DNA of 64,000 nucleotides from Phorcus lineatus. Lineage: Eukaryota > Mollusca > Gastropoda > Trochida > Trochidae. The position numbers and the translations under genes are program-made. The notes beneath the pieces were generated by a model. It had not been told where the DNA came from. It saw only the letters and a list, made by a program, of their open reading frames with translations, and did not search any database. This document shows, one piece after another, positions 16,229-63,077 of the stretch (positions within the stretch are counted from its first letter, which is position 1; every line of letters begins with the position of its first letter). The stretch lies in the NCBI GenBank assembly GCA_921293015.1, contig OV121081.1, forward strand, positions 53,283,877 to 53,347,876, in the 5' to 3' direction.

Positions 16229-16770
16229 TACAGATTTACTCTGTGCATATATTAGATGACAAAATAAAAGAACACGTCAGATGCAGCAGTCATCATACTC
16301 ATGTCATAGCATATAAATGATTACTGTCGTTTGATCTTCTGTGATGAAGTCACACTGTACCACAGGCGCCAGACTCTGAATTTACAATATCATGTAAGTA
16401 TATGTACATGTAGCTATATAACATAAACAAGGTCTGACACTAGTGACAGAGTCGTGTCTGCAATAGGACCGGAGTTGGTTTCCTGGCTCGGTTACCCTCT
16501 GTAAACTTCGTAGACAGATCCCAGTTCGCATTTCTGGTCCTATTGCAGACACGACTCTGTCAGACCTTGTTTATGTTAAATAGCTACAAGTTCATATACT
16601 TACATGATATCGTAAATTCAGAGTCTGACGCCTGTGACTTGTACGTACAGATTGTGCACAGAATAGATGACAAACAAATATAGTAAATAAATAAATTACA
16701 TGCAGCAGTCATCACATTCAGGTCAAAGCATGTTTGAAAGATTACAATCGTTTGATCTCCTGCATGATCG
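16229..16770. repeat. Foldback repeat nested in direct repeats
   Basis: Two inverted arms of about 100 bp (16361-16471 and 16536-16635) flank a loop of about 64 bp. The arms share AGACTCTGAATTTAC, ATATCATGTAAGTATATG, ACATAAACAAGGTCTGAC and GAGTCGTGTCTGCAATAGG. The left arm carries an extra ACTAGTGACA. Outside the arms are direct, diverged repeats of about 125 bp (16229-16355 and 16641-16770) sharing GCAGCAGTCATCA, TCGTTTGATCT and AGATGACAAA. The whole forms a symmetric foldback with a duplicated flank. It has no open frame and is presumably non-autonomous. Confidence 0.8.
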
Positions 16771-21060: not shown

Positions 21061-21064
21061 CGAT

Positions 21065-21476
21065 GTCAGGGTTTACATATGGGATATTATATGAGTGTCC
21101 ATGACATACCATGTTTACGACACGAGTGCTTAATATTAGTATTTCCCGAGCGAGAGCGAGGGACATACTGATTTTAAGGCACGAGTGTCGTAAACATAGT
21201 ATGTATTGGACACTCATATAATATCCCCTATGTAAACCCTGACATGTAAACCTATGATATACTGCTTATTACCGAAGTCGAGAAATCAAAGAAAATAATC
21301 AAAATCAACATCCAGAATAGGCATAGGCGCATTTTGAACACAACTTCATAGGCGAACTGTGACGTCAAAGCATTGTTTTTGACGTGACGTCACAATGAAT
21401 AAGTGATATTTTGCCCTAGGGCATCGTATTAAAATTATTAACCCCGAAATAATTGCCCTCGTAGGTAATAAATGTA
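21065..21476 (-). repeat. Hairpin plus paired CRE repeat, copy A
   Basis: A 179-bp hairpin (21065-21243) has arms of about 80 bp that both read GTCAGGGTTTACAT, GATATTATATGAGTGTCC and TGTTTACGACAC inward. They meet at CCCGAGCGAGAGCGAGGG (21145-21162). About 117 bp to the right are two perfect TGACGTCA palindromes (21360-21367 and 21385-21392) separated by a CATTGTTTTTGAC-type spacer. The far end, CCTCGTAGGTAATAA near 21463-21476, resembles the outer end of the copy at 26.7 kb. Strand is given so that, as in the other copies, the CRE pair precedes the hairpin. No open frame is present. Confidence 0.75.
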
Positions 21477-22170: not shown

Positions 22171-22172
22171 AC

Positions 22173-22360
22173 AAGAATGACAAGATTTATGGATGATCAA
22201 CTTCTTTATATGTATACACAAGAATAGCAATATTTATGGATGATCAACTTCTTTATGTGTATACACAAGAATAGCAATATTTATGGATGGTCAACTTCTT
22301 TATGTGTATACACATAAAGAAGTTGATCATTCATAAATCTTGTCATTCGTGTTCTAAAAC
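22173..22360. repeat. 47-bp tandem array ending in an inverted copy
   Basis: Three direct copies of a 47-bp unit share AAGAATAGCAATATTTATGG, then ATGATCAACTTCTTTATGTG, then TATACAC. They are followed head-to-head by one inverted copy (from about 22313), so the last direct and the inverted unit can fold into a hairpin. Copy 1 differs slightly (GACAAGA for AGCAATA) and the inverted copy matches that variant. The same TTTATGGAT plus CAACTTCTTTAT core builds the hairpin at 62.9 kb. Confidence 0.85.
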
Positions 22361-23800: not shown

Positions 23801-23954
23801 TGACTCACTAGAATGTTCACTGTCGTCTCGCCGCTGTGGCACTGGACGATCTAGCCGCGGGAAAAATCGCTGGGGACACGTGACATGACGTAGATGCCTC
23901 GTTCTGAAACTGACCCTTGACCTATCGTCATGTTTACCTTATGGTGTATAAAAG
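23801..23954 (+). promoter_or_regulatory. TATA promoter of GNAT gene 1
   Basis: From distal to proximal I see an AP-1-like TGACTCA (23801-23807) and an E-box CACGTG (23877-23882) running into ACATGACG. Then come TGACCCTTGACCT (23911-23923), TGTTTAC (23930-23936) and TATAAAAG (23947-23954). The 13-mer at 23911 is, on the minus strand, AGGTCA-A-GGGTCA, a DR1 direct repeat of the type bound by HNF4- and RXR-class nuclear receptors. TGTTTAC is a forkhead-type site. DR1, TGTTTAC and TATA recur at nearly the same spacing before gene 2 (DR1 to TATA gap 23 versus 24 bp). Factor identities are inference; the motifs and their conservation are seen. Confidence 0.8.
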
Positions 23955-24094: not shown

Positions 24095-24449
24095 GTAAGT
24101 ATATCGTGATTTGTTTATGCGGTTTTATTTTGTTCTAAAGATGAAGTTTTATCTTAATTTCGTCCTTATTGTCGGATACTTATTTATTATGCAAGTAAAT
24201 TTTGTAAAATGTCTTAAACGGTAATATTTTTGTTTTAGCTTTTGATTTCATTTTACCGTCTTTTTGTATTTTTTGGCTGCACATTTAACTTTCCTGAGTC
24301 GAAATATGCTATTGAGAAGTGTAAACTTGCACAATATCATAATCTAGAGGTATGACTTGATGCATGTACTTTATATTGACTGTTCCTCTGAACATTTTAC
24401 GTTAATGACAAATTTACTAAAGTATTTACTCTCCTTTCCAGATTTGACA

Positions 24450-25022
24450 ATGCTGATCACAGAAAATATTGAGAAGGCAAAACGTCTCCCTGGCGTGGTC
24501 CCCTACACAACCATCCTCCCCGACGGTCGGCTCGTCATCATCGACTCGATGACCGACTCGCAGATCACAGAGACCTTTACCTTGATACAGGCCGCCGCGC
24601 AGACCGGAAATGGCTTCGGAGTCGACGAGTATTCGTCCGAAAAAGAGTTCCGGGAAGATATCGAGGGTGGTTACAAATTCGCCATCATGAGCAAAGAGAA
24701 CGGCGAGATGCTTGCGGCCTTCATGTTGGCCATCAGCAAATACTCACGTGGGTGCAGTGTGGCCGATCCTTTCATCATCGTCAAGAAATCCGAGCGGGGC
24801 AAGGGCATCGGAGAGTTCTGTCTGCGAATGTGTGTAGAGTTTGCCCAGGAGTTGGACTTCATGGGCATGTACGTGGACACTTTCAGCAATAACCGATCCA
24901 TGATCAAAATCATCGAGAATGTGGGAGGTTTCACCCAAGTGGGTTGTCTGCCCATGGGAGGAAGGATGCTGGACGGGTCCATTGTCAGCTCCATCATCTT
25001 CTACAAAGACTTCAATCCATAA
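24450..25022 (+). CDS. GNAT-family N-acetyltransferase, paralogue 1
   Basis: The 190-residue product is a GCN5-related N-acetyltransferase fold protein, which would transfer acetyl from acetyl-CoA to an amine. The substrate is unknown. Motif A is clear: beta-strand ADPFIIVKK (105-113), then the acetyl-CoA pyrophosphate loop RGKGIG (116-121, fitting R-x-x-G-x-G) and its helix. Motif B follows around residues 147-161 (NN, KIIENVGGF). No signal peptide or membrane segment is visible, so it should be cytosolic or nuclear. I chose ATG 24450 because exon 2 begins at 24442 after a CTCCTTTCCAG acceptor and gene 2 has the same arrangement. The in-frame ATG at 24357 lies in the intron. Third positions are strongly G/C in an AT-rich region, suggesting selected codon use and high expression. 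Family is sure; function is not. Confidence 0.9.
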   Translation: MLITENIEKAKRLPGVVPYTTILPDGRLVIIDSMTDSQITETFTLIQAAAQTGNGFGVDEYSSEKEFREDIEGGYKFAIMSKENGEMLAAFMLAISKYSRGCSVADPFIIVKKSERGKGIGEFCLRMCVEFAQELDFMGMYVDTFSNNRSMIKIIENVGGFTQVGCLPMGGRMLDGSIVSSIIFYKDFNP

Positions 25023-25062
25023 ACTTTAATCTGCTCGTATCAGGTATCTATCTTCCTACGTC

Positions 25063-25080
25063 CCTACGTAGTATTACGTC
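25063..25080 (+). promoter_or_regulatory. Conserved 3'UTR motif, gene 1
   Basis: CCTACGTAGTATTACGTC lies about 40 bases after the stop. It is identical in gene 2 (39981-39998), although the surrounding 3'UTRs differ much more. It contains the palindrome CTACGTAG. It could be an RNA element or chance conservation; its role is unknown. Confidence 0.45.
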
Positions 25081-26074: not shown

Positions 26075-26766
26075 AGAGACTATTACGAGGGAATGTGTTT
26101 AATATGACTTTAATCAGATCCAGGCAGGAGCGAGGCTTTTGCACAATTTGCACACATTTCGTAACATGGCACACTTCCAAATGTAATACTTTCTTTATTA
26201 CCGTTTTTCATTCAATTGAATCGCATAGAAATATCAAGAAAACAGTCTCTTCTCCTCACTACTGACGGCAATGTCATGACAAAATGTCACGCACAATGGT
26301 TTAATTACGTCACAGACGCGCTGTAACAATCGTTGCACATGTGCTCATATTCAAAACTTGTCGCTACTTATGTTTCACTCCATGGGTATCAATCATATAC
26401 ATGTTACCCATATAGTTAATCATAAGTGATGACATATTTTCAATATGAGCACATGTGCACATATCACTTTTGCCTACCAACGATTGTTTCAGCGCGAGTA
26501 ACCTTATTATGTCGTCTGTGACGTCATCAAACCATTGTTCGTGACGTCACTGAAGCGGGCCGCCGCAAAGAAAGCAGGCCGCTTTCCGTGTGTTTTAAAT
26601 GAAATAGAATTGGTAATAAAGAAATTATAACCCTCGGAATTGTGTCATATGACTTTTACGAAACTCATGCGAACTTGTGTATAACCCTCGCTCTCGCTCG
26701 GGTAATACAAAAATTCGCACTCATTTCGTAAAAGCCATATGACACACTCCTCGGGTAATAATCTCT
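26075..26766. repeat. 692-bp foldback with hairpin ends and CRE pairs, copy B
   Basis: The two ends are inverted copies of each other. Each begins AGAGA, TATTAC and a GAGG block, passes a CGAGCGAGAGCGAGG-type core and reaches TTTCGTAA and TTCTTTATTACC. Inside, the arms continue (ACAATGGTTT, ACGTCACAGACG, AACAATCGTTG, GCACATGTGCTCATATT) to a centre near 26390-26430. The right end itself folds into a 139-bp hairpin (26624-26762) centred on CCCTCGCTCTCGCTCGGG (26685-26702), the exact reverse complement of the centre of copy A. The right arm has TGACGTCA at 26519-26526 and 26542-26549; the left arm has decayed versions near 26285-26315. It contains no open frame. It is probably a foldback/MITE-type non-autonomous transposon. 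Confidence 0.82.
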
Positions 26767-26769
26767 ATG

Positions 26770-29230
26770 AACTGCATGGTAGGGTCAACATTATTAGTTC
26801 TTTGTCAAGTACTATATATACATGTAAATATATATATACCAGTATACTTGTACACTTGCCACGTTGGTCAATGGATGCACTGATTGAGTGCATTTTTCAG
26901 TAACTGGTGGCAAATAAACGTATGAAGATAAAACCTGAAAATACTAAATTATTTGTTATGGTTTCAAGTTGACTTTTCTGTTTACACTAGGAAGTTGTAG
27001 TATTTCAGTATATAGACCATGCTTTTAAGGTATTATTAAATGGTATATAACTGCCCTAAATCATAACGAATACTGTTTAAAACGTGCAACCATTAAAGGA
27101 ATTTAATTGTAACTGAAAATGTAACGATAGCACTGGTACTTCCTGCATAATAAAGATTCACATGCCACCATCAGTTTCCCATAACGTTGATATGTAACAT
27201 TTAAAATAATTCAGTTACAAAATACAGTTCCTGCCCTCTGAAAAGACTAAACTTCGAAACCTTCCAAATTGCCAGTTAAGGGGTTGATGACGGATAAAAG
27301 GGAGTTTCCCATGTGTATAAGGCATTTTGGACCCGTAGAATGTGTCGGATAAGACGATGCGACGATGTGAGGGATTTGAAGGATGCTGGTTTGGAGAGGG
27401 ATTAAACAGTAAATCTGATTTTTATAGAAACAATTACAAAGCAATAAAGATTCATTTAAATATATTCAGATAAGATTATCAGATCATTAGATATTTTGTC
27501 AATCATGATCATCTCAATTTTATAGTTTTGTTTGTGTATCGTCACGTTCATATTGCATGAGAGTACCCTGCTTGACGTAGGAAAGCTTTATAACAATTTT
27601 ATAACCTCATCTCCATTACTTATCATCCCAGCTCTCGGGGCGAATTATGAATGAATTGTGGACAAATTCCTCACACCAGAAATAGTGTATATCGTGTAGG
27701 ACATAAAACCCGAAGAGGAATTTCTGACGTCATAGAACCTGTATCGGAATCCTGTGGGACAAACTTCACACATGGAGACCAATAACGGTTGATGAATACG
27801 TCATCGGAGATGAACATGAACACATATATGCTAGGATGGTCCATAACTAGAGGGAAGTGCGGAGATACATATCGTTACATATTTGCTGACAAACTGTTTT
27901 ATAGAATTGGGTTGGGTTGGATTTATTTCTCCATTAATTATCATTTGGTTATAAAATATATACTAAGGTGTCATGAAATATTGGGGCATGTAAGCACGGA
28001 TTCCTTTTAAATGATCATTTGCTGCATTTTGTTTTCGTGTGATGGCCGTTATTTAAGATTAAGGTATTGTTAAATTTTCAGTTTGTTATAAAATGCAACT
28101 TGAAAGTGAAATGTAAAATTTCCTTTTTACATTATTATTTTTGGTTTATTATGCCGAAGTTTCCGTTTTAATAAATGCATGGCTCAGAAAATGTCAGTGT
28201 CATTTATTCATCCACGCATTGATTAATAATCGATTTATATTATCCATTTGATAATTTAAAGTTAGAAACACACTTGTTTAAGCCGGTTGTCAGTAGGACA
28301 TCTCAGAATCGTTCGTTCTTTTAAAAAACCCCAATTATTTCAGTTAATATATGAAAGCAGCCTTAGAGAAATTCAATTAGAATCATAATTTTTGCCTCAC
28401 TTTATCAGTTTGACATTTTTAATATTTGTGTTTCGTAACAAAAATTAGCGGCAAAGAAAACTTATGTGGAGGCTGAGGAAACGTTTTAAACGTCGGTGAA
28501 ACTTTTCAAACCTTAGGAAAACGTTACAACATGAGATAAAGTAACATGTATGTACAATCTAACTAAAATACCAACAGCTGTGCCTGTAATATCAATAGGG
28601 TAATAAGATGATTTGAATTACTATCTTGTGAAATCTTTATTTTGGAGAATAGCAGAATAAAGCTTGTTTAATCGTGATATTGACAATATAAAGCTAGTAT
28701 TATTACCCTCGGATCAACATAGCACAAAGATGCAAAAAGTCTAAGGTATATAACATATTTGTAACACGACAACAAACTGTGCATTCATGACAAAATGTTG
28801 ATGTTTTGTTAATTGATTATGAAAAGAAGTCAAATAAGTTGCTGATTTAAAACATTGTACAATCCATCAAGTAAACCAACGTGGTAAGTTAAGCTGAGTG
28901 GCTTTATCATATTATATATCATATATCATATATTAAAGCTGAAAAGCTTTGGCGATTTCGTTATTTGTAAGTTGTTTGTCAGTATTCAAATGATATAGTT
29001 AAGGTTCATCTTATGCATTCTTCTCTCAAAACGTTTTTTCAAATGCAGTGCTAGAGACATATCGTTGAAACAATAATGTTTTGGGGGAAAAAGACTGTCA
29101 AATACATTGAGTTAACGCTCATTGTATTTGTAACTATCTATTAACTTAGACGCCTTAACTGACGCCGCAACGATTGCATGAGAAAATCAATACCCTCACA
29201 GTACACATGAAAGCTGCATGGTGCTGAAGT
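26770..29230. other. Non-coding sequence upstream of the split promoter
   Basis: No open frame above 73 codons and no recognisable repeat apart from short AT runs. The last bases (CACGTGAC, 29231-29238) match the E-box region of gene 1's promoter. Confidence 0.4.
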
Positions 29231-29241
29231 CACGTGACTAC

Positions 29242-29700
29242 CACTGCGTGAAAAAATGATATTTAAAATCTTGTAAATATCTATTAAAATTGTTTTTTAC
29301 AAGATATTTACAAAGATTAAAATACTTCTTTACAAAATAATAAATATATTAAATGTCATCTTTACAAGATATTTTCAAGATATTTAATCCCTTTGTAAAT
29401 ATTTGAAAAGGTTTGTAAAGTTTTGTAAAGTTTTGTAAATGTTTTTAAATGTTTTTAAATGTTTTTAAATATCATTTTTAATCTGAAATAAATATTTTTA
29501 AATATGATGATTAGTTTGTAAATATCATCTTTAATCTGCATTAGATATTTGTAAATATCATCTTTAATCTGCATTAGATTATGTAAATTACATATTTAAT
29601 CTGCATTAGATATTGAAAAATACATCTTTAATCTGCATTTTGATATTGAAAATTACATCTTTTATCTTTATTAGATATTGTAAAGAACATCTTTTTTGTC
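29242..29700. repeat. Left subterminal tandem array of the 8-kb insertion
   Basis: Diverged units of about 33 bp share GTAAATATCATCTTTAATCT and TGCATTAGATATT. They are clearest at 29519-29660 and blur into shorter TTTGTAAAT-type repeats on the left. The right array of the element carries the complementary pattern. Confidence 0.8.
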
Positions 29701-29704
29701 GATA

Positions 29705-32700
29705 TAAAAAATGTTAATCTTTTTTTAATATTGAACTTAGATTCGTATAGGTTTGTACCTTGGTGCCTTGCTTATATCATTGAAAGAGAATAAGGAGATA
29801 TCTGATAAATAAAGTTACTTTGTAATGAAAGATATTGATAAAAAGTTTCGTAAATTTGATAGCATTGCCTTTGGAATGGGATGATCAACATTCTTTTATT
29901 CCCTTATCTTCTAAAAGTTTCTAAGATGGATAAGAGATGAACGGTAGTTAAAATGGAAATCTGATGGAATTTGCATGATTTTTCACAAAGACTCATATAC
30001 AGCGAGGTTAATAATATTATTCGTTTTGCTCCTTTTTAAAATTCATTACCATCAATATTTTATTTAAATATACTGCTCCTAAATACTCTTACAGTTATGT
30101 TAACTTACTGACTGGGATTACCTTTGAATATAAAGTGCATTGATTACAATACCACTGTATTTGATTTTTTTTAATATATTTGATTTTAAGAACTATTCCA
30201 CAATTAATATGAAAAAAAATAATTATCTGCATTTTGACGGTCATTATAACTAGTTCTATCGAATCAAACGGCATACAAAGTCACTCATGGTTAGATGAAA
30301 ACCCTTTCTTTTAAAAGTTATAACAATAATTCAAAATTAATATTGTATAAATCTAGCGTCCTTCTTAAAATCAGTTTTGACAATGTATGTTGTAAATCTG
30401 ACTTGAAAAAACCCTTTGTAAAATGACCTACCTCAGACACTGATATATATTATCCATTCTTGTAACTTGTATATCCTTATACACAATGTAAGCTACAACA
30501 GTTTCCATTCAGCACTGAGCATGCACAGTGTTAATCTGACAGCTTGGCATGAGAACGAGAGATTGGCATTGAGTCATAAATGACAAACAGTAATTAGTGG
30601 GCACCACTTGTGACTGGTGTATGGCTAAAACAACATACACAGATCTCGGAATGGTCCATGTTGTTTTAACAAATTGGGCCCTTTTTGCATTGATCATGTA
30701 GATACTTTAATGAATAGAAAAAATTGTTTAAGTTTTAAACATCATCTTGAATGATATTTTATATGTTTCGGTCCAATGTATGTCACATACTTGCACAGCT
30801 TACAATTCGACCTGCTTATCCTTATGGAAATGTACAAATTACCAGTACTATGTAATAAAATACTAACATTTTGAAACTAAATGTTATGTTCCTACATGTA
30901 AATAAAATCAATTTTAGTATGATACATGGCTTCAAGAATCTTACAAAGGTATATACGTCGGTCCCATTTTGAAATTTTATCAGTTTTGACTCAAAACGCG
31001 TTTAGTCTATTGACTAACGTTTTGAAACTGAAATACATCTCTATAAGGTGTTCTATTTATCAATGGAAATACATTTAAGCAAACAAAGATTCTTACTCTA
31101 GCCACGACTTTGAAGTGCCACGCGTTTTTTTCTCAAAGATATATCAAAAATATTGTAAAAGATAAGTGACTAAAAGGTATAATGCTTGCACTTTCAGTGA
31201 GTGAAATGTTAACTCCCGCTTCACAAATTGCATGTGTTTCATGAGTCTTGATAATCTTCTCTGAATTGGTCATATTTAAGAATTCAAGATTCAACTGTCT
31301 GGTGACATATTTTTATTGAACAAGTTGATAATGTGGGATGGGCAGGATAGGGTGTTTCTTGAAGGAGGAACAAATTGAGACGTCTCACCCCTGGCTAATG
31401 CCATATTTTACAGCCCCGTTCATTACATAATTATTGTCGTAAAGACTCTTCGATCCTTATGATCTCAAGACTAATTACAGGAAAGGCTAATTAGTTGGCT
31501 CCAGTCAGTCTATTGGGTCTTATCGCAGGTGCACGGATGTACTTGTCTTGTGGAAGGGGAGAGTGTTAGGCAATCAAAAGTTCAGGAGACATGACATGTG
31601 ACAATATATTAGCTTGAACCCCTTACAATTGGTCAAAACTTAGTATATAACAAAATTTAAAGAACTGGATTTACGACTCTTGCTCGTGTGTTGGTCAAGA
31701 TTCAAGAACTCCTCTGGTGAGTAACTTAATATTTTTTGTTGGGATTTCATCCTTGTTATTGATATAGGTATACAAGGTAAGTGAGATCTACATGAGGTAT
31801 GGAAGGATTTACTCATGTCATCTTGGTTAAAACAATATCTATTTCAAAAATGAAAAGGATGTCATGTCAATTTTAGTATGTTTTTACTGAACTTATTTAC
31901 GTGAATCTGGCATTCATTGAACACTATACCAGGATAAAATGTTATCCATAATTCAGTAAAATAAATATTATATAATATAACATGCGGACTGATTAGTTTG
32001 GTAATACAAACGCTCATTTAACAAGATATATAAAATGGTTATGTAAATATGTAATATGAATATTAATTTGTACACTCGATGTATTGTAACGATGTATAAA
32101 CAAAAGACTACAAATGAATTACATATCTATATTTCACACATAGAGGAAACATTAGAAGTGAGTCATTTAGCAATGAAACAAATCACTACAATAAAAACAC
32201 AAGTGCACAGGATATGTTTGATTACAAGGAGCGAACGGATAATGCCACTGTATAAACAGGGTAAAACCTCAAATTATATCTATCTTCTCTGCCATTGTTT
32301 ACTTCCGGATCAATATACACTGTAACCAAAACGAAGAATACCATAATGATCCGGGACAAACCGCGCCAGTTACTTTCAGAATAAATAATAAAGGTGTGTA
32401 TAATTAACCATTCATGCGATATAAAACAGTTTTTCTCATTTTCTGTATCATGTTGGAAATACTTACGGTTGAAGTAATATGTGTTGTTTATGCTGAGTAA
32501 CTTAGATCTGTAAACAAAGTAAAGCTTTTTCAACAAAGCTACTGAAATCTAAGACTTATGTACACAATTAGATTTTGTGTTTTTTCAACAAAGCTTTTGA
32601 CATCTTAAACTCAAATGATCTGCCGTCATCAATTACCAAAGTATTAATGAGGTGATTAAACTTCTTTTAACTTTTGTATATAGATGTTGTCAGTCAAATT

Positions 32701-34220
32701 GAGCGCTGCATTATATAAAATGAGGCAATGAAGTATTAATATTTGTATGATTGATAATAGGAAATGTAAGAAAACGAGACTTTACTGAACTATTTAAAGT
32801 GAAATCAATCATATAAAATGCCATATTTGGCTGCGCATTACAGATATACACTTATAATAAAAGCTAAATCTGACATAAGTTCCAAACATATCGCCTTTAA
32901 GCAGGGACATAAAACTAGCCTTGCCTGTTTGATTTATCACCTAAAACCTGTAGCCTTTTGGTATACCTTTTAGAGCTTTATGGAATACTCGATTTTGGTT
33001 TTGGCGCGTTATCCCGAGATCAAACCACCACTTTCCCAGGGCCGAGAATACTAAATAACCCCTTAAAGCAGTTGTGGGTATAGACTTAAATAGTCAGGGT
33101 CTAGTTATTAATCGGTTCATAAATTATATAATATATAAAAATAAGTATATATATTATAAACGAATCAGAAATAACTTGATATGAATGTTCCGTATCAACC
33201 TACTTGGTGATCCTTTTTCACAAATAAGTTGGGGACTGACTGAAGTGACCCACGGAAACTTTCGTGATTCATAATATATGTATTCTAATTTGCCAGTAAC
33301 TTGAATTCAAATTTTCGAAATTGGCCAATAAACAACTTGATACTGCTTTTTCGAATCACCAGCTAATTAGCACCAGTGACCAGAACTGAACTGGCCCGTG
33401 GTCACTGAGGCGTGTCCTGCCGCATGACGTGCTAGTTTGCGGACAAACAGATTTTTGTCTCACTGGTATATACAACCAATCGCACAGCGATTTATGAGAG
33501 ACACTGATACAGTTATAATGTTGATATGTAAAGTAAAGGCATCTACATTAAAGGACTAAAATAATAAAACATGTCATCTGTATAACATATTACGTCATAA
33601 GGATATCATAGCAGGCCTTGGCACTATCAAGAGTTAAAACGGGATTATTAAGTATAGAATAAAGTATTGGTTTGACGATAGCATATTAAAAACCTTCCTA
33701 ATTATCAAGACAAGATACAAACAATTCCTCTAAATGACTGATATAAAGGGCAAAACAATAAGTAAGTAAGTATAACGGAAGTATAACCTCCTTAATGAAA
33801 AAACAACAGGATATCTCACAGTCATAACAGCTGTTTAAAAAGATTAGGTCATCCAAACAACTCAAACCTCAGATAAATTGATGTTAAATATATCTTTAAT
33901 TATATGTATTGTTCCAAGCGAGAGACAGTGTTTTAATATGATGCTATGCGTACTATTCCATGACATGTGTACATCAATTACAACTTCTGTCAAATGGGCG
34001 TGGCTTCGAGTCATCCTTAAGGGATTTTGTGTGAGCGTTCGCCAGTCTCAATAGGCGGTCATCCAAAACAGGGTTATAAAAGATCTCCTAGTAGTCGAAT
34101 TAAAGCATATTATATTATCTCTCTAATTGGCTCTAATGATTCTTATAATAATCAAACTTGTACGTTACATCTCCTCTTTATGGAAAAAGTTAACAAGTAC
34201 ATATATATCTTATCTAGTTA
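29705..34220. other. Interior of the 8-kb insertion, left part
   Basis: AT-rich with no frame above 104 codons and no motif I recognise. TATATAA at 31644 followed by a good splice donor (GGTGAGT at 31716) resembles a promoter plus exon, but there is no further support. Confidence 0.35.
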
Positions 34221-34227
34221 ACGATGA

Positions 34228-34715
34228 GTGGGTCGTATGCTTTTATTCAGGAACAACTGTATGATAAAATACTACTTCAGTATATTGATTTATAAATATA
34301 TTTGTTTTGGGTTTACTACAATTTGTATTTCGACTTTTCATCTCCGAAAGGTTGTTATTATGACAAGCATAAGGATGATTTATATATTGAAAACTTTTTT
34401 TTGCAACTTCCTTTGAATTTATCATCATGTCCGTCATGTAAGCAGAAGATAGGGGATGAATTTCAATGTGTGCCAGAGTGTAACCTTTTTAATGATTTAC
34501 GAGATAAAGATCTTCCTGCATATTATTGTAAACATTCATCAATTGAAAAATATATTTCATGTATGTCCATCACATACAAACCGATTTTGTTACGACTCTT
34601 TGTATAAAAAATGGTCTGCGTATGCTTGATATGTCTATTAAGTTATATTCATGTATGTTTTGTTCACTCTATGTCATCATTTATGACTTTTGAGATAAAT
34701 TTGACTTGATTTGAC
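34228..34715 (+). mobile_element. LINE fragment, C-terminal end of ORF2
   Basis: The frame at 34302-34607 reads CPSCKQKIGDEFQCVPECNL followed by FNDLRDKDLPAYY. This matches the Cys-rich tail (C-x2-C, GDEFHY, xxC, then a YLPxYY block) at the end of many invertebrate LINE reverse-transcriptase proteins. The histidine normally after GDEF is replaced by glutamine. The 3' flank ends GATAAATTTGACTTGATTTG, a common style of LINE 3' terminus. It is 5'-truncated and lies inside the 8-kb insertion, so either it arrived later or the insertion carried it. The assignment rests on pattern recognition. Confidence 0.6.
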
Positions 34716-34719
34716 AAAT

Positions 34720-36890
34720 GAAAACATTTCATTATTAGTATTTTATTTTCAAATAAAAATATCTTATTTATTTCAAAATTAATCTCCCTTTTGATCAGTG
34801 TAAGCTAGGGGAGCACTAATTAGGACTGTTCCATTTCAGCCAAGTGTCTAAGATATGGCTGGGACATAGTCTTTTACCAGGCAATTACCGTAACAATGCA
34901 ATCAGACGAAGCGTAACGTTGTTATTTGAATGAAGCCTTAGTGATTTGGGTTAATACACGTGTCAGTAGGTATTTAGTGGAGATCAAAGGAAACTTGTTA
35001 CACCGTGTGCAACAAAGCGTATCTATCATTTCAATTGAACGACGGTTTTATCATTAAACGGCACAGTTAAATCACTATAAGATATAGGTTATATGGAGGA
35101 CAGGGTAATGTATTATTCGATACTGCAAAGAGTATTATCATATGCCTTTGACATCAAACATTAAATGTCTCTAGATATATAGTTTTTATCAACGCACAAA
35201 ACAATTTTCTTAATGTATATAAATGTGTATTTGATTGTTTGATTTATTTTGATTATTATACATATTATTATGTATATCTATATATATAAATACGTTAATA
35301 TGGCAGCTTTGCATAAGGCTAAAACAGATAGCGTTGTTGTACATGTTCGTGTTGTACAAACAGACCATTATCTTGCTATATCACTATATCAAATAGCTAA
35401 GTTGACATAAAATAGAAAAATATTAGAGAAGTAACATCATTCATTGTTCGTCCCTAATTGTAATATTAAGCATATTTGAACGGCTAGGACCTAACCTAAA
35501 CTCAATACTCATAAAGTACACAAACTAAAATTTAAATAGAAAACAAATATATTAACAAACATTACGATGTATAAAATATATAATGAATAATGTATATCAA
35601 CTATAATTTTACCAAGAGGCAACGTGGATATATTTCAAACGTTAAGTAATAAATGTCATTGCATTTTTGTATTATAACCGTCGGTTAGCTGTAAAGCTAA
35701 ATGTTATTAAAGAATCGAAATGACTCCTACTCACCGTTTTATTTTGGATTTTTTTCTGCCTCCACTAAAAACTCCAAAAAAATAAACACTTACATAACCG
35801 TCTGTCTATCTTCAATAATATTTGTTACTATCAGCAATATGAACATTATTCTAAATGTTTAGTTATACACATGTTGAAAGGTAATGATCACCTACTCTCC
35901 CAAACGGCTCATATTTGAATAAAAAAGTGATTCTAAACTAGGACGGCAGTGTGGATCAATAACTGTCAACATATGTATAACTTAACTTGTAATAAACGCT
36001 TAGAGTAACAGCTTATTGAGTAGGAATAATCTTAGTTTCAAAAATAGTTTATTTTGAAAACTGAGAGAAATTCCAAGTTGGAGTGCCAATACAGAGAAGT
36101 TGGGGATTATCAAGAGTCATTCTGTCTCTGAATAAAAAGGTAAGATATGTATTATTAATAAGAATATCGTCTTGGTTTCATAATGTTTATTTTCCTCACT
36201 ATTGACTCATTAGTTTGTAAACTATATAAGTATTGAGGCTAGGTAAGGTCCTAGACGTTCAACAATGCAAAGTATTAAAAATTTTGGACACCCGACTTTC
36301 AAAATATGATAAACGATGTAATTTGCAATTCCTTGTCTGATAACACTGTAGGATACATTGATAATTTGGTTATATACTACGTATCAGGTACGTTATTTCA
36401 ATTTCAGTTTCAATTTCAAAAGAATATGTATTCATCAACATGGATCTCTATAAGAATGATTTCAGCCTCGGTCAATAATTATCTATATTTTTTTAAGGAA
36501 AAAAACAAGGTATTGGCAAAATAGATTTGTACATTTCATATTTTTAACAACAATGTTAATAAATATGTTTAAAACGAATGCATGTCGTTTAGTGTTTTCA
36601 CTCTGTTTATATCGATTCAATTTTTGTTATGGTTGAACACTTAAAAAAAAGCAGAAAACAATACTTTTTCCAAATTTGTACTTTTGGGATATATAACGAC
36701 AAAACTTAATTCAATTATTTGTTTACAATGCATTTTATATCCAATTGCTTGTAGACAATGACAAATACAAACGTATCAAGTAATTAAGGATTCCAAGTTA
36801 GGATGTGTCCCATCTTAAGATATATATACGATTTAAGAATGTCATATATAGTTTATCTATTTTGCAGACATACAGCTTAAATTTCATATA
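34720..36890. other. Interior of the 8-kb insertion, right part
   Basis: Very AT-rich. I see no gene, transposase motif or ordered repeat. Confidence 0.4.
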
Positions 36891-36894
36891 AAAA

Positions 36895-37402
36895 ATAACT
36901 AAAAGAGATTTTTAAAAATGTATGAAATCAAATATTTCATACAGATTAAAATGATATTTACAAAGATTTCATACAGGATAACGATGATATTTACAAGATT
37001 TAAAACAGAATAAAGATAATATTTACAATATTTAATAAAGATTAAAGATGTTTTTTACAATATTTAAAAAAGATTAAAGATGCTATTTACAATATTTAAA
37101 AAAGATTAAAGATGCTATTTACAATATTTAAAAAAGATTAAAGATGATATTTACAATATTTAAAAAAGATTAAAGATGATATTTACAAACATTTAAAAAT
37201 ATTTACAAATATTTAAAAATATTTACAAATATTTAAAAATATTTACAAATATTTAAAAATATTTACAAATATTTACAAACATTTACAAACATTTACAACG
37301 GATTAAACATGATATTTACAAAATGTAAATATCTATTAAAGATGATATTTAATCTTTTGTAAATGTTTGTAAATATATTAAATATCTTCTTTTTACCCAG
37401 TG
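36895..37402. repeat. Right subterminal tandem array of the 8-kb insertion
   Basis: A 32-bp unit built from AAAGATTAAAGATGATATTT and ACAATATTTAAA repeats about seven times (about 36960-37190). It is followed by an 18-19-bp ATTTACAAATATTTAAAA array (37190-37290) and diverged units up to the CAGTG end. It is the inverted counterpart of the left array. Confidence 0.85.
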
Positions 37403-37405
37403 TAC

Positions 37406-37474
37406 ATGACGTGTGCCTCGGTCCTGCTGTGACCCTTGACCTCAGTCTCTGTTTACATCATGCAGCTATAAAAG
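37406..37474 (+). promoter_or_regulatory. Proximal promoter of GNAT gene 2, cut by the insertion
   Basis: Only about 65 bp separate the insertion from TATAAAAG (37467-37474). Within them lie ATGACG (37406-37411), the same DR1 13-mer as in gene 1 (37430-37442) and TGTTTAC (37450-37456). The upstream E-box CACGTGAC, adjacent in gene 1, is here 8.2 kb away at 29231. Either the gene works from this minimal promoter or it has gained control from inside the insertion; the sequence cannot say which. Confidence 0.78.
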
Positions 37475-37497
37475 GGGCGACCGCTTAAAACCAGTTC

Positions 37498-37615
37498 AAT
37501 TCTTTCTAGAGACAGACGCCGAGCCACATCGCTCCTTTGAAGCTGATATCACGTGCTAGGCGAGACAGTTGTGACACAGTTAGAACGGGAAAGTACCTAC
37601 AGCGATAACTAACAG
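37498..37615 (+). other. GNAT gene 2, non-coding exon 1 (5'UTR)
   Basis: Transcription probably starts near 37498, about 31 bases after the TATA box begins (GTTCAATT). The exon ends in AACAG before the donor GTTAGT at 37616, and aligns with exon 1 of gene 1. TCACGTGCTA (37549-37558) is shared with gene 1. Confidence 0.7.
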
Positions 37616-39362
37616 GTTAGTCCTCTTTTACTTTTCTCTTTGTGATGTCATATCATGTTCGTATATATGCATTTGAAAATTCAATTAGGATTTTGTTTTG
37701 TCATCTTTTGATTTGAGAATGTGTTGAACTGACTATGGCATATCGAATCCTTTAAGTTATCCTATATCGTGTGAAGAAGAGTGATTCATGCCTGACTAAT
37801 AACTCGACATTTTATTTTGGAATCGAAATTGCTATGGACTTTATGGTCATTGTTAAAATAATTATTCGGAGAAGTAATCAAAAGTAATCTTTGAATAATG
37901 AATATGTTACATCACAATATACCAACATAACCTGAGGATATTGTCGTTGTAATGCAATACTTGTTGTTCAAGAAATGCATTCAAACATCGTAGTCATTGC
38001 GTCAGTTTCTAAATATTTCACAATAATTGAATCAGTCAAGCGAGAAGTCACAATTTACCTACACCTGTTCACAGCGTGAGAATACATTCTTGATGAGTTA
38101 CTCAATTCAAATAGTATTCTTACAGGGAGCAATCCCATGACAATATCCTCTAATGCCGTATGGTACTTCGAACATCTGATAGCTTTATTAATGAATCAAA
38201 ATCGAACATTTCATAAATCAATATTCACAACTGATCTATCTAGTGCGGTGAACTCGATGTGATAATGATGCTTATATGACAGAAAGAAATAAAATCATTG
38301 ATTTCGAGGACATTGCAGCGTTATAAGCGAACTCGATGATACGCCATTGTATTGATTTTCGCGATGCGTTATAGCCGTATCAACGTTCCAGAAATTTCCA
38401 GACGAAATCACATTTGTATGGTTTGTGTTTGTACACCGTTGATTGATAAAGCGCTGTATTTAAACTGAAAGTTAAAGACACGGTGCCTAGGGTTAAAGTG
38501 ACATAGCAAAGAATAAGGAGCACAAGAAATTTCCAGCGTTCATCACAGCTTTCAATGTGTAGAGGTAGCGAGGCACCCTTTCGGCTGTAGCAGACATTCT
38601 AGAAACTTCCACGCTGTCTCGCGTTATACAGCATGAACTGGTGCATGTAATCCTTTACTCATACGAGCTTGGAAGGAAATATCGTTTAACTAACAATTTA
38701 TTTGCCTCTGCATTGAATTCGGCTTCTATTGAAAGAATGAATAAAAGAAATTTTATTCACCTCATTCTATTGTTTATATTGTTCGCCATGTTCAAATACA
38801 GTTTCTTAAATGTATCCATTAATGAAAATGGGAAACATGTATAAACCTGCAGTGCATTGGCAAAGGGCCATGTCGTGAGAAAATAGTTATTAATAACTAT
38901 GACTTGGGAACCACTGGGGTATCAACTTGCATGTGCTTTATACAGGACAATAACGATCCAACCCGGTATGCCAATTAACCGCCAAGACTGAATGATCAAT
39001 GCAGTCGCTATTACCTTACAAGGACTATAAGACCCGTATTCGGTATTGAGCTGTAGCATGAAGTGACCTCGTATGCGATAGTGCGTATCACAACAACGTA
39101 GTAATCCGAAGTCAAGGCCCATACAGCTGCAACCTAATTCTATTCTAACTAGGCCAAGGCGGTTTGAACCGATGAGCGCATATTGAAATGTCGAGATGTG
39201 AAAGTGGTATGACCACGTGAAAGTGTATATCATGAAGTAGTAATTTTGATATCATTAGAAAGAAGAATTTGTGCATGTGTGATATTTACAAATTTAAAAA
39301 TATATCTTGTTGTTGTAAGTAGGTTGATTCAGATTCTTAACATATCGGGTTCTTTTTTCCAG
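37616..39362 (+). other. Intron 1 of GNAT gene 2
   Basis: This 1747-bp intron has donor GTTAGT and acceptor TTCTTTTTTCCAG, five times the length of gene 1's 347-bp intron. I found no transposon to explain the difference. Open frames inside (38641-38844; 38922-39233 on the minus strand) have no recognisable motif. An 18-bp palindrome, ATAGTTATTAATAACTAT, sits at 38884-38901. Confidence 0.65.
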
Positions 39363-39370
39363 ATTTGACA

Positions 39371-39943
39371 ATGCTGATCACAGACAACGTAGACAAGGCA
39401 AAACGTCTACCTGGCGTGGTCCCCTACACAACCATCCTCCCCGACGGTCGGTTCGTCATCATCGACTCCATGACCGACTCGCAGATCACAGAGACCTTCA
39501 CCTTGATACAGGCCGCCGCGCAAACTGGAAATGGCTTCGGAGTCGACGAGTATTCGTCCGAAAAAGAGTTCCGGGAAGATATCGAGGGTGGTTTCAAATT
39601 CGCCATCATGAGCAAAGAGAACGGCGAGATGCTTGCGGCCTTCATGTTGGCCATCAGCAAATACTCACGTGGGTGCAGTGTGGCCGATCCTTTCATCATC
39701 GTTAAGAAAACCGAACGGGGCAAGGGCATCGGAGAGTTCTGTCTGCGAATGTGTGTAGAGTTTGCCCAAAAATTGGACTTCATGGGCATGTACGTGGACA
39801 CTTTCAGCAATAACCATGCCATGATCAAGATCATCGAGAATGTGGGAGGTTTCACCCAAGTGGGTTGTCTGCCCATGGGAGGAAGGATGCTGGACGGGTC
39901 CATTGTTAGCTCCATCATCTTCTACAAAGACTTAAATCCATAA
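39371..39943 (+). CDS. GNAT-family N-acetyltransferase, paralogue 2
   Basis: This has the same 190-residue length and fold as paralogue 1: motif A with ADPFIIVKK (105-113) and the acetyl-CoA loop RGKGIG (116-121), and motif B ending KIIENVGGF. It differs at 10 residues: E5D, I7V, E8D, L28F, Y75F, S114T, E134K, R149H, S150A and F188L. Only E134K and R149H are not conservative or small, and none touches the acetyl-CoA loop. Start ATG 39371 is the first ATG after the acceptor (exon 2 begins at 39363); the upstream TTG in frame is not needed. The frame is intact, so despite the split promoter this is not an obvious pseudogene. Codon use is G/C-ending, as in paralogue 1. Substrate is unknown. Confidence 0.9.
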   Translation: MLITDNVDKAKRLPGVVPYTTILPDGRFVIIDSMTDSQITETFTLIQAAAQTGNGFGVDEYSSEKEFREDIEGGFKFAIMSKENGEMLAAFMLAISKYSRGCSVADPFIIVKKTERGKGIGEFCLRMCVEFAQKLDFMGMYVDTFSNNHAMIKIIENVGGFTQVGCLPMGGRMLDGSIVSSIIFYKDLNP

Positions 39944-39980
39944 ACTTTAAGCTGACTTCGTGCTTATCTCTCTCTACGTA

Positions 39981-39998
39981 CCTACGTAGTATTACGTC
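39981..39998 (+). promoter_or_regulatory. Conserved 3'UTR motif, gene 2
   Basis: CCTACGTAGTATTACGTC, identical to 25063-25080 and at nearly the same distance after the stop. A preceding CTACGT-type repeat is also shared. Confidence 0.45.
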
Positions 39999-48307: not shown

Positions 48308-48540
<233 letters not shown>

Positions 48541-51069: not shown

Positions 51070-53070
51070 TCAACGTTCACTTCGAATACAATATACATAC
51101 AAACAATAAGGTTTTTTTCTTATTTAATTTTCGATTTACTGAAATTATGCTTGAAATATTTGCATTTTAAGAACATTTTAAGAAGAAGGTAGATTATCAT
51201 AATATTGACCTTCATTTAAGACGAACTGCGAGAAGAGGATAGGTTGAAAATGTAGAATTGACTTAAACTAATTCATATAGATGGTATAAGAAAAGATTAT
51301 CTCACGTGCCACCAACTTCAAGTCAAAGCAAACTAGAAGATGAACTCTATGTTATTCTGCGATGTCTAAATGATTTTGATATTTAGGTAATCTGTAAATA
51401 GATAATTATGCATACGAGTTTCGTTTCGGGCACCAATCCAGGTATTTGTATTTAATCAATCTAATTTAATTTGAATACAGCCATGGTTCTACACGTACGT
51501 GTGTACAACTACAATGTTTGATATCATTCGACAATATCGGATTCCCACAGTGTCATTAATGCTTCTATACATCTTTAATTACATTTTTATTATTGACACC
51601 AAAACCATCGGCAACAGGCATATCCACAAAAAGTAACATGAAACAGTTAAGTGCAGTTTGGTACCATGCAGTGATGACACAAGAGAGCATTCGTTCTGTT
51701 TTTGATTCATTGAAGGGAAATCACGTGAGATGTCATAGGTCAGAGAATGTACTGGAACATCCTGGAAGCGTGACTGTGTGACAGGTCATCATGCAGTAAG
51801 TGGGTGACACGACACTGGAGTGAATAAACACGCTGCTTTCTACAACGTTGGGATGGGATCAAGTGTGGAAATGTTTGATACTTTGAACCATTCCATGTTT
51901 TGTAATCTGAAATTTGAAAACATTAAGTACGTTACTGCGTATCTTGATTTGGTAATGGCATGAGGTATGTAATGCATGCATGTCCACAAGGTTTGTCATT
52001 CCTTTGTTGTAAATGTTAGTAAAAAATCATCAAACGACGTGTATCCCCAATGGTGGTAATTCAAATCTGGTTCGGCAAGCTTGAATTCCCCGTTCCTTAT
52101 TTACTGATAAACAAACTATGGCATTGCATTTCAATATTTATGGTATTAAAATGTAATTATTTCACTTAAATTTATATTAATATTGTACCTGGTATGAACA
52201 GTTCATTCAAACAGAAATATGTTTCACTTTCATCTGACAATATTGCTGATGATAAAGAATGCTTTGCGACACAAAGAACATTTCAAATTTTGAACCGCTA
52301 CTGGTACAATATCACAAGACAAAATTAGTCATGTCCGTTATTTGGTCATTGGAAATGTACCATTTATGATGTTTTAGTTTAAGACATAATCCAGTATGCA
52401 ACGGGAAGGTCGTTATACCCTGGAAAAAGATACAACATATCAATTGATTTAAAATACATGAGGGGGAGAAATCTATCCTAAACCAGCGGATGACCTTTGT
52501 GTAATTGCCCCACATTGACACTCCTGGGTCAGCGTGACATTAGTCATACCGGTATACATATACGTGTCGTAGTCTCGCTTACATTCACTGACAATGAGCC
52601 TCTGTCACCTACGCATTACTTTTATATCATTTTTGACAGATGAGTATGTTAAATACGTAGATGTTCCTTTTACCAGGAAAGTTAAGAACTGCATTCACAA
52701 TACAAGGAATTTCTTGAGACATCGATACAACAAGAATGGGGGCAAATTTTTACAACTGGTGTCACGAGTACTTTGCAGTGCATTTACATAAAACGCATTT
52801 CCATTTCATCAAGGGTTATTAAAGAATTTATAAAATGATATATGTTCGAAGATCTATATTGCTCATCTTTCATTTACAGTACGTAGAAGATATCTATATA
52901 TACCGGCAGCTGTTTAATCCATTTGTCAACCCCGATGTCAGAGAAAAGGAGTTTTTCCCTATCCAACTTTCCTCTTAATTCTTTAAACAGTGCCCTAACA
53001 GTTGTTTATGAAATTAGCAAAAGTAAGATGTTTGTATATTTTGTTTGATAAACCATCACACCATAGTTTT
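51070..53070. other. Non-coding sequence
   Basis: Open frames of 62-69 codons (51593, 52312, 52594) have no known motif. No repeat or RNA gene is seen. Confidence 0.35.
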
Positions 53071-53077
53071 AGCGGTT

Positions 53078-53356
53078 GATGGTAGCACTAGTTGTTTGGA
53101 TGAATGAGGATGGGTGTGGAGTAAGGGTATCCGTAGAGGTGGATGGTAGCACTAGTGGTTGGGATGCGTCGGGTGGGTGTAGGGTGCGGTTATCCGTGGA
53201 GGTGGATGGTAGCACTAGTGGCTTGGGTGGGTCGGGGCGGATGTGGGGTGAGGGTATCCGTAGATGTGGATGGTAGTACTAGTGGTTTGGATGCGTTGGG
53301 TTGGTGTGGGGTGCGGTTAACCGTGGAGGTGGATGGTAGTACTAGTGGTTGGGATG
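53078..53356. repeat. G-rich minisatellite, alternating 63/64-bp units
   Basis: Units begin GATGGTAGCACTAGTGGTT at 53078, 53142, 53205, 53269 and a partial unit at 53332. Units 1 and 3 (64 bp) share AGGGTATCCGTAGA, while units 2 and 4 (63 bp) share GTGCGGTTA and CCGTGGAGG, so the true period is a 127-bp dimer. The plus strand is strongly G-rich with many GGG runs. The 127-bp period is not a multiple of three, so the open frames here (53076-53364) are not conserved protein repeats. Confidence 0.92.
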
Positions 53357-62938: not shown

Positions 62939-63077
62939 CATGAAGAAATAGGAAAGTTTATGGATTTACAACTTCTTTATTGCAACGAGACGTTTCAGCG
63001 TTAGTATCGTACATCGAAACGACGCATCTCTTTGCAATAAAGAAGTTGTAAAGCCATAAATTCCCTATTTCTTCATG
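62939..63077. repeat. Hairpin repeat (CAACTTCTTTATTG type)
   Basis: Arms of about 45-60 bp begin CATGAAGAAATAGG and share TTTATGG, TTACAACTTCTTTATTGCAA and a CGTTTC block near the loop. The TTTATGGAT and CAACTTCTTTAT segments are the same as in the 47-bp array at 22.2 kb, so the two are related. No open frame. Confidence 0.8.

Follow-up and report, generated by a model that had tools for sequence, protein, structure and literature searches.

The window analysed here is a 64-kb stretch of the genome of the gastropod Phorcus lineatus (genome G000, contig C1, positions 53283877-53347876) that carries two paralogous GNAT acetyltransferase genes, gene 1 and gene 2. An 8161-bp segment (29242-37402, plus strand) splits the gene 2 promoter. 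With a probability of roughly 93%, this segment is a cut-and-paste DNA transposon of CACTA/EnSpm type that lacks a transposase of its own and was placed in the gene 2 promoter by one recent event. The insertion of a transposon into a promoter is itself an ordinary, known kind of event. The family to which the element belongs is a new one, non-autonomous and of CACTA/EnSpm type, and its notable points are a recent burst and a uniform, gene-less size of about 8.2 kb without short derivatives among the ends listed.

Boundaries of the insertion

The element begins with CACTGCGTGAAAAA and ends with TTTTTACCCAGTG. The termini form imperfect inverted repeats of 28 bp that start with CACTG and match at 23/28 bases (29242-29269 on the plus strand, 37375-37402 on the minus strand), and comparison of ends and flanks places a target-site duplication, TAC, at 29239-29241 and 37403-37405 on the plus strand. 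An initial annotation of this stretch, which had described an 8161-bp segment with CACTG-type inverted ends and TAC on both sides, is correct to the base. The window contains 577 pairs of CACTG and CAGTG spaced 200-15000 bp apart, 12 of which have identical 3-bp flanks; among these 12, the element pair alone exceeds 14/28 end matches, the value of the runner-up. In the remainder of the window, 400000 randomly drawn pairs of 28-mers include none at 23/28 or better. Within the two AT-rich arms of the element, 627 of 222783 pairs of 28-mers do so, such matches being frequent there because the arms are repetitive.

The paralogue allows the junctions to be located independently. In gene 1, the E-box CACGTGAC (23877-23884) is directly followed by ATGACG (23885), which starts 62 bp before the TATA box TATAAAAG (23947). 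In gene 2, an exact match to the E-box adjoins the left junction (29231-29238, plus strand), while ATGACG (37406) and the TATA box (37467) are both retained on the right, 61 bp apart. These coordinates agree with the claim that the two motifs are contiguous in gene 1 and flank the segment in gene 2; on the plus strand of the window, CACGTGAC occurs at 23877 and 29231 only. BLAST homology between the genes picks up again at 37400, with 77.5% identity over 80 columns. The left breakpoint is the weaker side by this comparison, as had been pointed out: CACGTGAC and a GCTG block are all that the paralogues share left of the junction, the last 20 bases match at 13/20, and 2.4% of 2000 shuffles attain the local score. 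The inferred empty site is CACGTGACTACATGACG, from which the equivalent in gene 1 differs by a 3-bp indel, the lack of TAC. The paralogue, proposed as a natural empty site, is thus not an exact one but an old site that has diverged.

Copies elsewhere in the genome

The genome searched comprises 957.8 Mb in 74 contigs. The first 1001 bp of the element were used as a query, and the best 40 of 267 candidates, the window included, were scored; 39 of the 40 start exactly at query base 1 (29242). The 742 bp to the left of the insertion give one full match in the genome, the window itself, and one 33-bp match elsewhere. Because the start recurs at the same base and the left flank is single copy, the left breakpoint no longer depends on the paralogue alone. 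Twenty other places from the same search were fetched, and copies with both ends within the fetched stretch (16/20) are treated as complete. All 20 begin with the same 18 bases, CACTGCGTGAAAAAATGA, and the 16 complete copies all run from CACTG to CAGTG; their terminal bases coincide and their printed flanks vary among copies. Identical 3-bp flanks are present at 13 of the 16, with 11 different words among them; the chance of equal flanks is ∼2% under a simple assumed base composition. The recurring ends and duplications bear out the proposal of one insertion event by a segment whose inverted ends are short.

When two mismatches or fewer are allowed, a motif for the two ends occurs 222 times in the genome (109 + 113), and its reversed control does not occur. 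One hundred of these ends, on contigs C1-C15 and the start of C16, were listed and resolve into 44 inward-facing pairs and 12 unpaired ends. The pairs span 7372-14936 bp with a median of 8236 bp (25/44 at 8.0-8.4 kb, none below 7 kb), and the fetched complete copies measure 7143-8952 bp. A query of 2 kb from the interior gave 1285 candidates; the 40 best, of which five are partly covered, were scored and all match at 97-100%. The end and interior DNA searches together identify at least 56 distinct places, and the copy number of the family is roughly 100-110. The recurrence of the ends across the genome, on which the initial annotation had made its claim depend, is thus found. Miniature inverted-repeat transposable elements are under about 1 kb in size, and the lengths of the listed pairs and complete copies exclude such an element or a small deletion derivative.

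Age of the insertion

Divergence was counted in 13 copies, i.e. the window copy and 12 of the 16 complete copies, leaving aside four whose lengths fall outside 7900-8300 bp (L012, L016, L022, L028). The counts cover substitutions only in the 7-kb interior and skip columns with more than two gaps, so that private changes are slightly undercounted. The mean pairwise divergence is 0.56%. The minor variants consist of 162 private to one copy, 39 common to L026 and L027 alone, and 8 otherwise shared, as expected of a recent burst that includes one minor subgroup (L026 and L027). Of the 13, the window copy has the most private changes, 19 in 7001 bp (0.27%). The coding exons of gene 1 and gene 2, in comparison, differ at synonymous sites by a dS of 0.12 (NG86) to 0.15 (YN00), or ∼0.06-0.075 per lineage, which is more than 20 times the private divergence of the window copy. 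The insertion is hence very young and much younger than the divergence of the two genes.

Coding capacity and architecture

The window copy contains no ATG-initiated frame of 90 codons or more, and neither do 14 of the 16 complete copies; the exceptions are a frame of 213 codons in an extra insertion of L012 and one of 109 codons in L027. The longest stop-to-stop stretch of the window copy, 108 codons, falls within the range of shuffled 7-kb interiors (median 90, 95th percentile 124). None of the 21 stop-to-stop stretches of at least 55 codons in the element scores above the Pfam cut-off, the two matches below it being PHD (E 0.053) and ZnF_RZ (E 0.075). A tblastn search of the element with a 912-residue Transposase_21 protein encoded on contig C25 yields nothing (best E 1.5). 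The Pfam and tblastn results rule out a transposase or a decayed transposase inside the element. The family is non-autonomous because it shows no similarity to a transposase and no frame longer than expected by chance.

The ends of the element are bordered by subterminal repeats of about 400-480 bp each, arranged as mirror images. Repeat and self-comparison place the left array, built of 10-bp and 32-bp units, at 29283-29694 and the right array at 36931-37385 (both plus strand). When one is inverted, the two arms align end to end over ∼480 bp and score 418; the direct orientation scores 219, and the best of 200 shuffles 212. Self-comparison also detects an inner inverted repeat (35450-36289) with arms of ∼79 bp at 35450-35528 and 36210-36289, which may be a nested transposon of greater age and has no clear target duplication by eye. 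A stop-free stretch of 103 codons (34296-34604, plus strand) has no Pfam match above the cut-off and is weakly similar (E 0.001) to the open reading frame in the extra insertion of L012. We take both this stretch and the tail of the L012 frame (L012:3034-3672) to resemble the C-terminus of a non-long-terminal-repeat retrotransposon. An Rfam scan of 29000-37600 gives no match at E 0.1. Exact matches to a 22-base subterminal unit are absent from viral and genome contig collections, and megablast of the element against phages gives no match, as expected of eukaryotic DNA, so that little is tested by either search.

Classification and possible source of transposase

CACTA elements are characterised by their ends, a 3-bp target duplication, and subterminal repeats that extend over several hundred bases (excerpt of PMC8978399). 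The corresponding features found here are CACT(A/G)-type inverted ends, a 3-bp duplication, and subterminal direct and inverted repeats over several hundred base pairs. The defining transposase domain, Transposase_21 (tnp2), is absent from the element; on C25, such a domain adjoins a related terminal array, at the single end of the C25 element that was read. The Transposase_21 profile has 10 matches in the genome. The C25 element extends from about 32937770 to beyond 32948966 (regions L029, L043, L044, and L047) and contains a Transposase_21 frame of 912 codons (C25:32938979-32941714; PF02992, E 6.6e-18). An outward-facing terminal array, 83% like the right end of the window element (332/400 columns), flanks this frame, which lies ∼0.8 kb inward of the array and ∼1.2 kb from the tip of the array. 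About 7 kb beyond the other side of the frame, L047 matches bases 2108-2325 of the interior at 74.5%, and two shorter matches follow in the same order as in the window element. This layout would fit that of a coding relative of the window element. Beside the frame, in L044 (C25:32942433-32944721), CACTA recurs at mostly 82-bp steps as a tandem array.

A second CACTA family, read in L030 (C16:21.18 Mb), L031 (C17:2.54 Mb), and L032 (C17:32.11 Mb), encodes a Transposase_21 frame of 859 codons, and its single end read is CACTACAAAAATGA. Over 8.27 kb, the regions of L030 and L031 agree at 99.8%, so this family was probably active recently. In the 11.5 kb read, it has no significant DNA similarity to the window element, the best match being 21 bases (E 0.004). 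This family and L034 were rejected as partners of the element on the lack of significant DNA similarity in the stretches read, which do not include all ends.

In the mechanism that these observations suggest, a Transposase_21 (tnp2) transposase supplied by another element would bind the ends in trans. By analogy with the established behaviour of CACTA elements, this tnp2-type enzyme would excise the element and rejoin it where the target is cut with a stagger of 3 bp. The element would have come to separate the E-box of gene 2 from the core promoter in a single event of this kind, which was recent and much later than the divergence of the two genes.

Weighing the alternatives

Several observations weigh against a CACTA/EnSpm-type insertion as described. 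Matching 3-bp duplications are absent from three of the 16 complete copies (L015, L018, L026), and no empty allele of the locus is seen in this single assembly, in which the left flank has no second full match. The C25 relative, known from one end, has a degenerate tip, CTCTGG in place of CACTGG, and its interior match could be a separate dispersed repeat. Transposase-like sequences were grouped by hand into 29 places, 13 on contigs covered by the end list and 16, C25 among them, outside it; the 13 all fall outside the pairs and more than 15 kb away from any listed end. An element without a transposase is classified by its ends, the length of its duplication, and here one incompletely read relative, which leaves a slight chance of membership in a different superfamily whose ends are similar and whose duplications are also short, such as Chapaev/Chapaev3, Transib, Mirage, or Plavaka, moved by a transposase of that superfamily. 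The CMCT lineages mostly have 5'-CA..TG-3' termini in common, with duplications of 2-5 bp (excerpt of PMC12730594). The same excerpt treats the combination of CAC..GTG ends and 3-bp duplications as consistent with EnSpm (PMC12730594), the related array on C25 adjoins a Transposase_21 gene, and the family has no fixed target word because the 13 matching duplications comprise 11 different words.

That the 8.16 kb is ordinary intergenic sequence, with the contiguous promoter of the paralogue as the deleted form, is improbable in the extreme. It would accord with the restriction of the data to a single genome, in which no empty allele of the locus is seen. It is ruled out as a working explanation by ends that recur at the same base across the genome: the left boundary does so at 39 of the 40 places scored among 267 candidates, 16 complete copies end at the same bases with flanks that differ from copy to copy, and the left flank of the window insertion is single copy. 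A recent transposon insertion of CACTA/EnSpm type remains the preferred explanation.

An extension of the CACTA/EnSpm reading, which we consider doubtful, holds that the family is size constrained. The roughly 110 gene-less copies near 8.2 kb would in this case owe their length to a 7-kb noncoding interior that aids mobility or spread, and the burst would deliver the same regulatory cargo beside host genes such as gene 2. No derivative shorter than 7 kb occurs among the 44 listed pairs and the 16 fetched complete copies. If the size is constrained, the interior may act through the spacing of the ends, or through transcription or chromatin signals.

The acetyltransferase genes and the possible effect on gene 2

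The coding exon of gene 1 (24450-25022, plus strand; PF00583, E 7.5e-06) encodes a GNAT acetyltransferase 95% identical to the 190-residue protein of gene 2 (39371-39943, plus strand; PF00583, E 4.5e-06). Both match Acetyltransf_1 (PF00583) above the curated cut-off and both frames are intact, as had been stated for gene 2. Comparison of gene 2 with the PDB yields distant GNAT matches only (best E 0.00044). Each gene appears to consist of one coding exon behind a non-coding first exon, which in gene 2 is placed by eye from splice signals at 37503-37614 (plus strand, start approximate) with a donor GTTAGT at about 37615. The coding exons, together with ∼15 bp of upstream and ∼58 bp of downstream sequence, are 94.6% identical (24435-25080 and 39356-39998). 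The introns (334 and 1736 bp) are not alignable beyond chance, and the promoters are far less alike than the exons, from which we infer that the coding exon was probably homogenised between the genes by gene conversion. Four further GNAT relatives are present in the genome, one about 40 kb past the end of the window (C1:53387384-53387923, 56% identical) and three at C16:35131488-35549822. One of the C16 relatives has a copy of the element, L026 (C16:35.04-35.05 Mb), at a distance of about 80 kb.

The remaining proximal promoter of gene 2 (37406-37474, plus strand) contains ATGACG, TGACCCTTGACCT (37430-37442), TGTTTAC (37450), and TATAAAAG (37467), with the same motifs in gene 1 at 23885, 23911, 23931, and 23947. 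In this order, they resemble a half-site of the cyclic-AMP response element, a direct-repeat-1 (DR1) site of nuclear receptors, a site for forkhead factors, and a TATA box. TGACCCTTGACCT occurs twice only in the 64 kb, once per GNAT promoter (23911-23923 and 37430-37442); TGTTTAC by itself is common in the window. The gene 2 E-box now lies 8.16 kb upstream of the remaining promoter. Gene 2 expression would be expected to be altered, most likely reduced or differently regulated. A serious possibility, somewhat short of even odds, is that the insertion is real and has no regulatory consequence, the TATA box and the preceding 61 bp being sufficient for gene 2. The intact TATA, DR1-like, and TGTTTAC motifs and the intact frame would fit this, as would the scant conservation between the paralogues upstream of the junction. 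The displaced E-box, on the other hand, is one that gene 1 also has, and in maize Spm, TNPA on the subterminal repeats blocks transcription (excerpt of PMC2613891). The insertion is recent, its boundaries in the promoter are exact, and an intact sister gene is close by, so that expression of gene 1, of the filled gene 2 and, if one exists, of an empty gene 2 could be compared directly.

Other features in the window

A frame of 199 codons at 1073-1672 resembles what we assume to be a fragment of a mariner-type transposase. Self-complementary stretches resembling short inverted-repeat elements are located at 16361-16636, 21063-21245, 22171-22352, 26334-26459, 26620-26766, and 62939-63077. The window also harbors a perfect AG run of 54.5 copies (48310-48418) and a 63-bp tandem repeat of 4.5 copies (53070-53356).

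Comparison with known systems

The end and unit sequences of the family have no match in the text of the open-licence papers searched, and nothing equivalent was noticed among the papers listed on mollusc CACTA, animal CACTA, or large non-autonomous CACTA elements. The closest general model is the CACTA/EnSpm group, exemplified by the soybean Tgmt* and maize Spm/En elements, which share with the window element the CACT-type ends, the 3-bp duplication, the long subterminal arrays, and insertion in or near a gene (excerpts of PMC2613891 and PMC8978399). In maize Spm, the subterminal repeats are bound by TNPA (excerpt of PMC2613891). Unlike these plant-type elements, the window element resides in an animal host, has CACTG ends, and contains no transposase gene in about 8.2 kb. 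The subterminal units also differ in length, being 10 and 32 bp in the window element, compared with 12 bp in En-1 and 17-20 bp in soybean Tgm in the excerpted sources.

Animal elements of the TRC subgroup, such as SmTRC1 of Schistosoma and its relatives in Tribolium and Aedes, resemble the window family in their link to Transposase_21 (here putative, through the C25 relative), inverted ends, and animal hosts (excerpt of PMC1636069). The end of the Tribolium element contains ATATTTGTAAAA, which is akin by eye to the TTTGTAAATAT unit of the window element (excerpt of PMC1636069). TRC ends begin with CCC and generate 2-bp duplications (excerpt of PMC1636069), as does a Hydra element of the TRC sort (excerpt of PMC4298943), in contrast with CAC and 3 bp in the window family. 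By the definition given in the excerpt of PMC1636069, these two features rule out membership of the TRC subgroup.

Within the same genome, the L030-L032 family is likewise CACTA and linked to Transposase_21, with a frame of 859 codons; it differs from the window element in having no significant DNA similarity to it in the 11.5 kb read. The C25 element is alike in its terminal array (83%) and interior match (74.5%), and unlike in its 912-codon Transposase_21 frame and mutated tip. The window element documents the recent burst of an 8.2-kb noncoding CACTA-type family that has a Transposase_21 relative with a common terminal array, and raises the question of which transposase moves the family and why its copies stay long.

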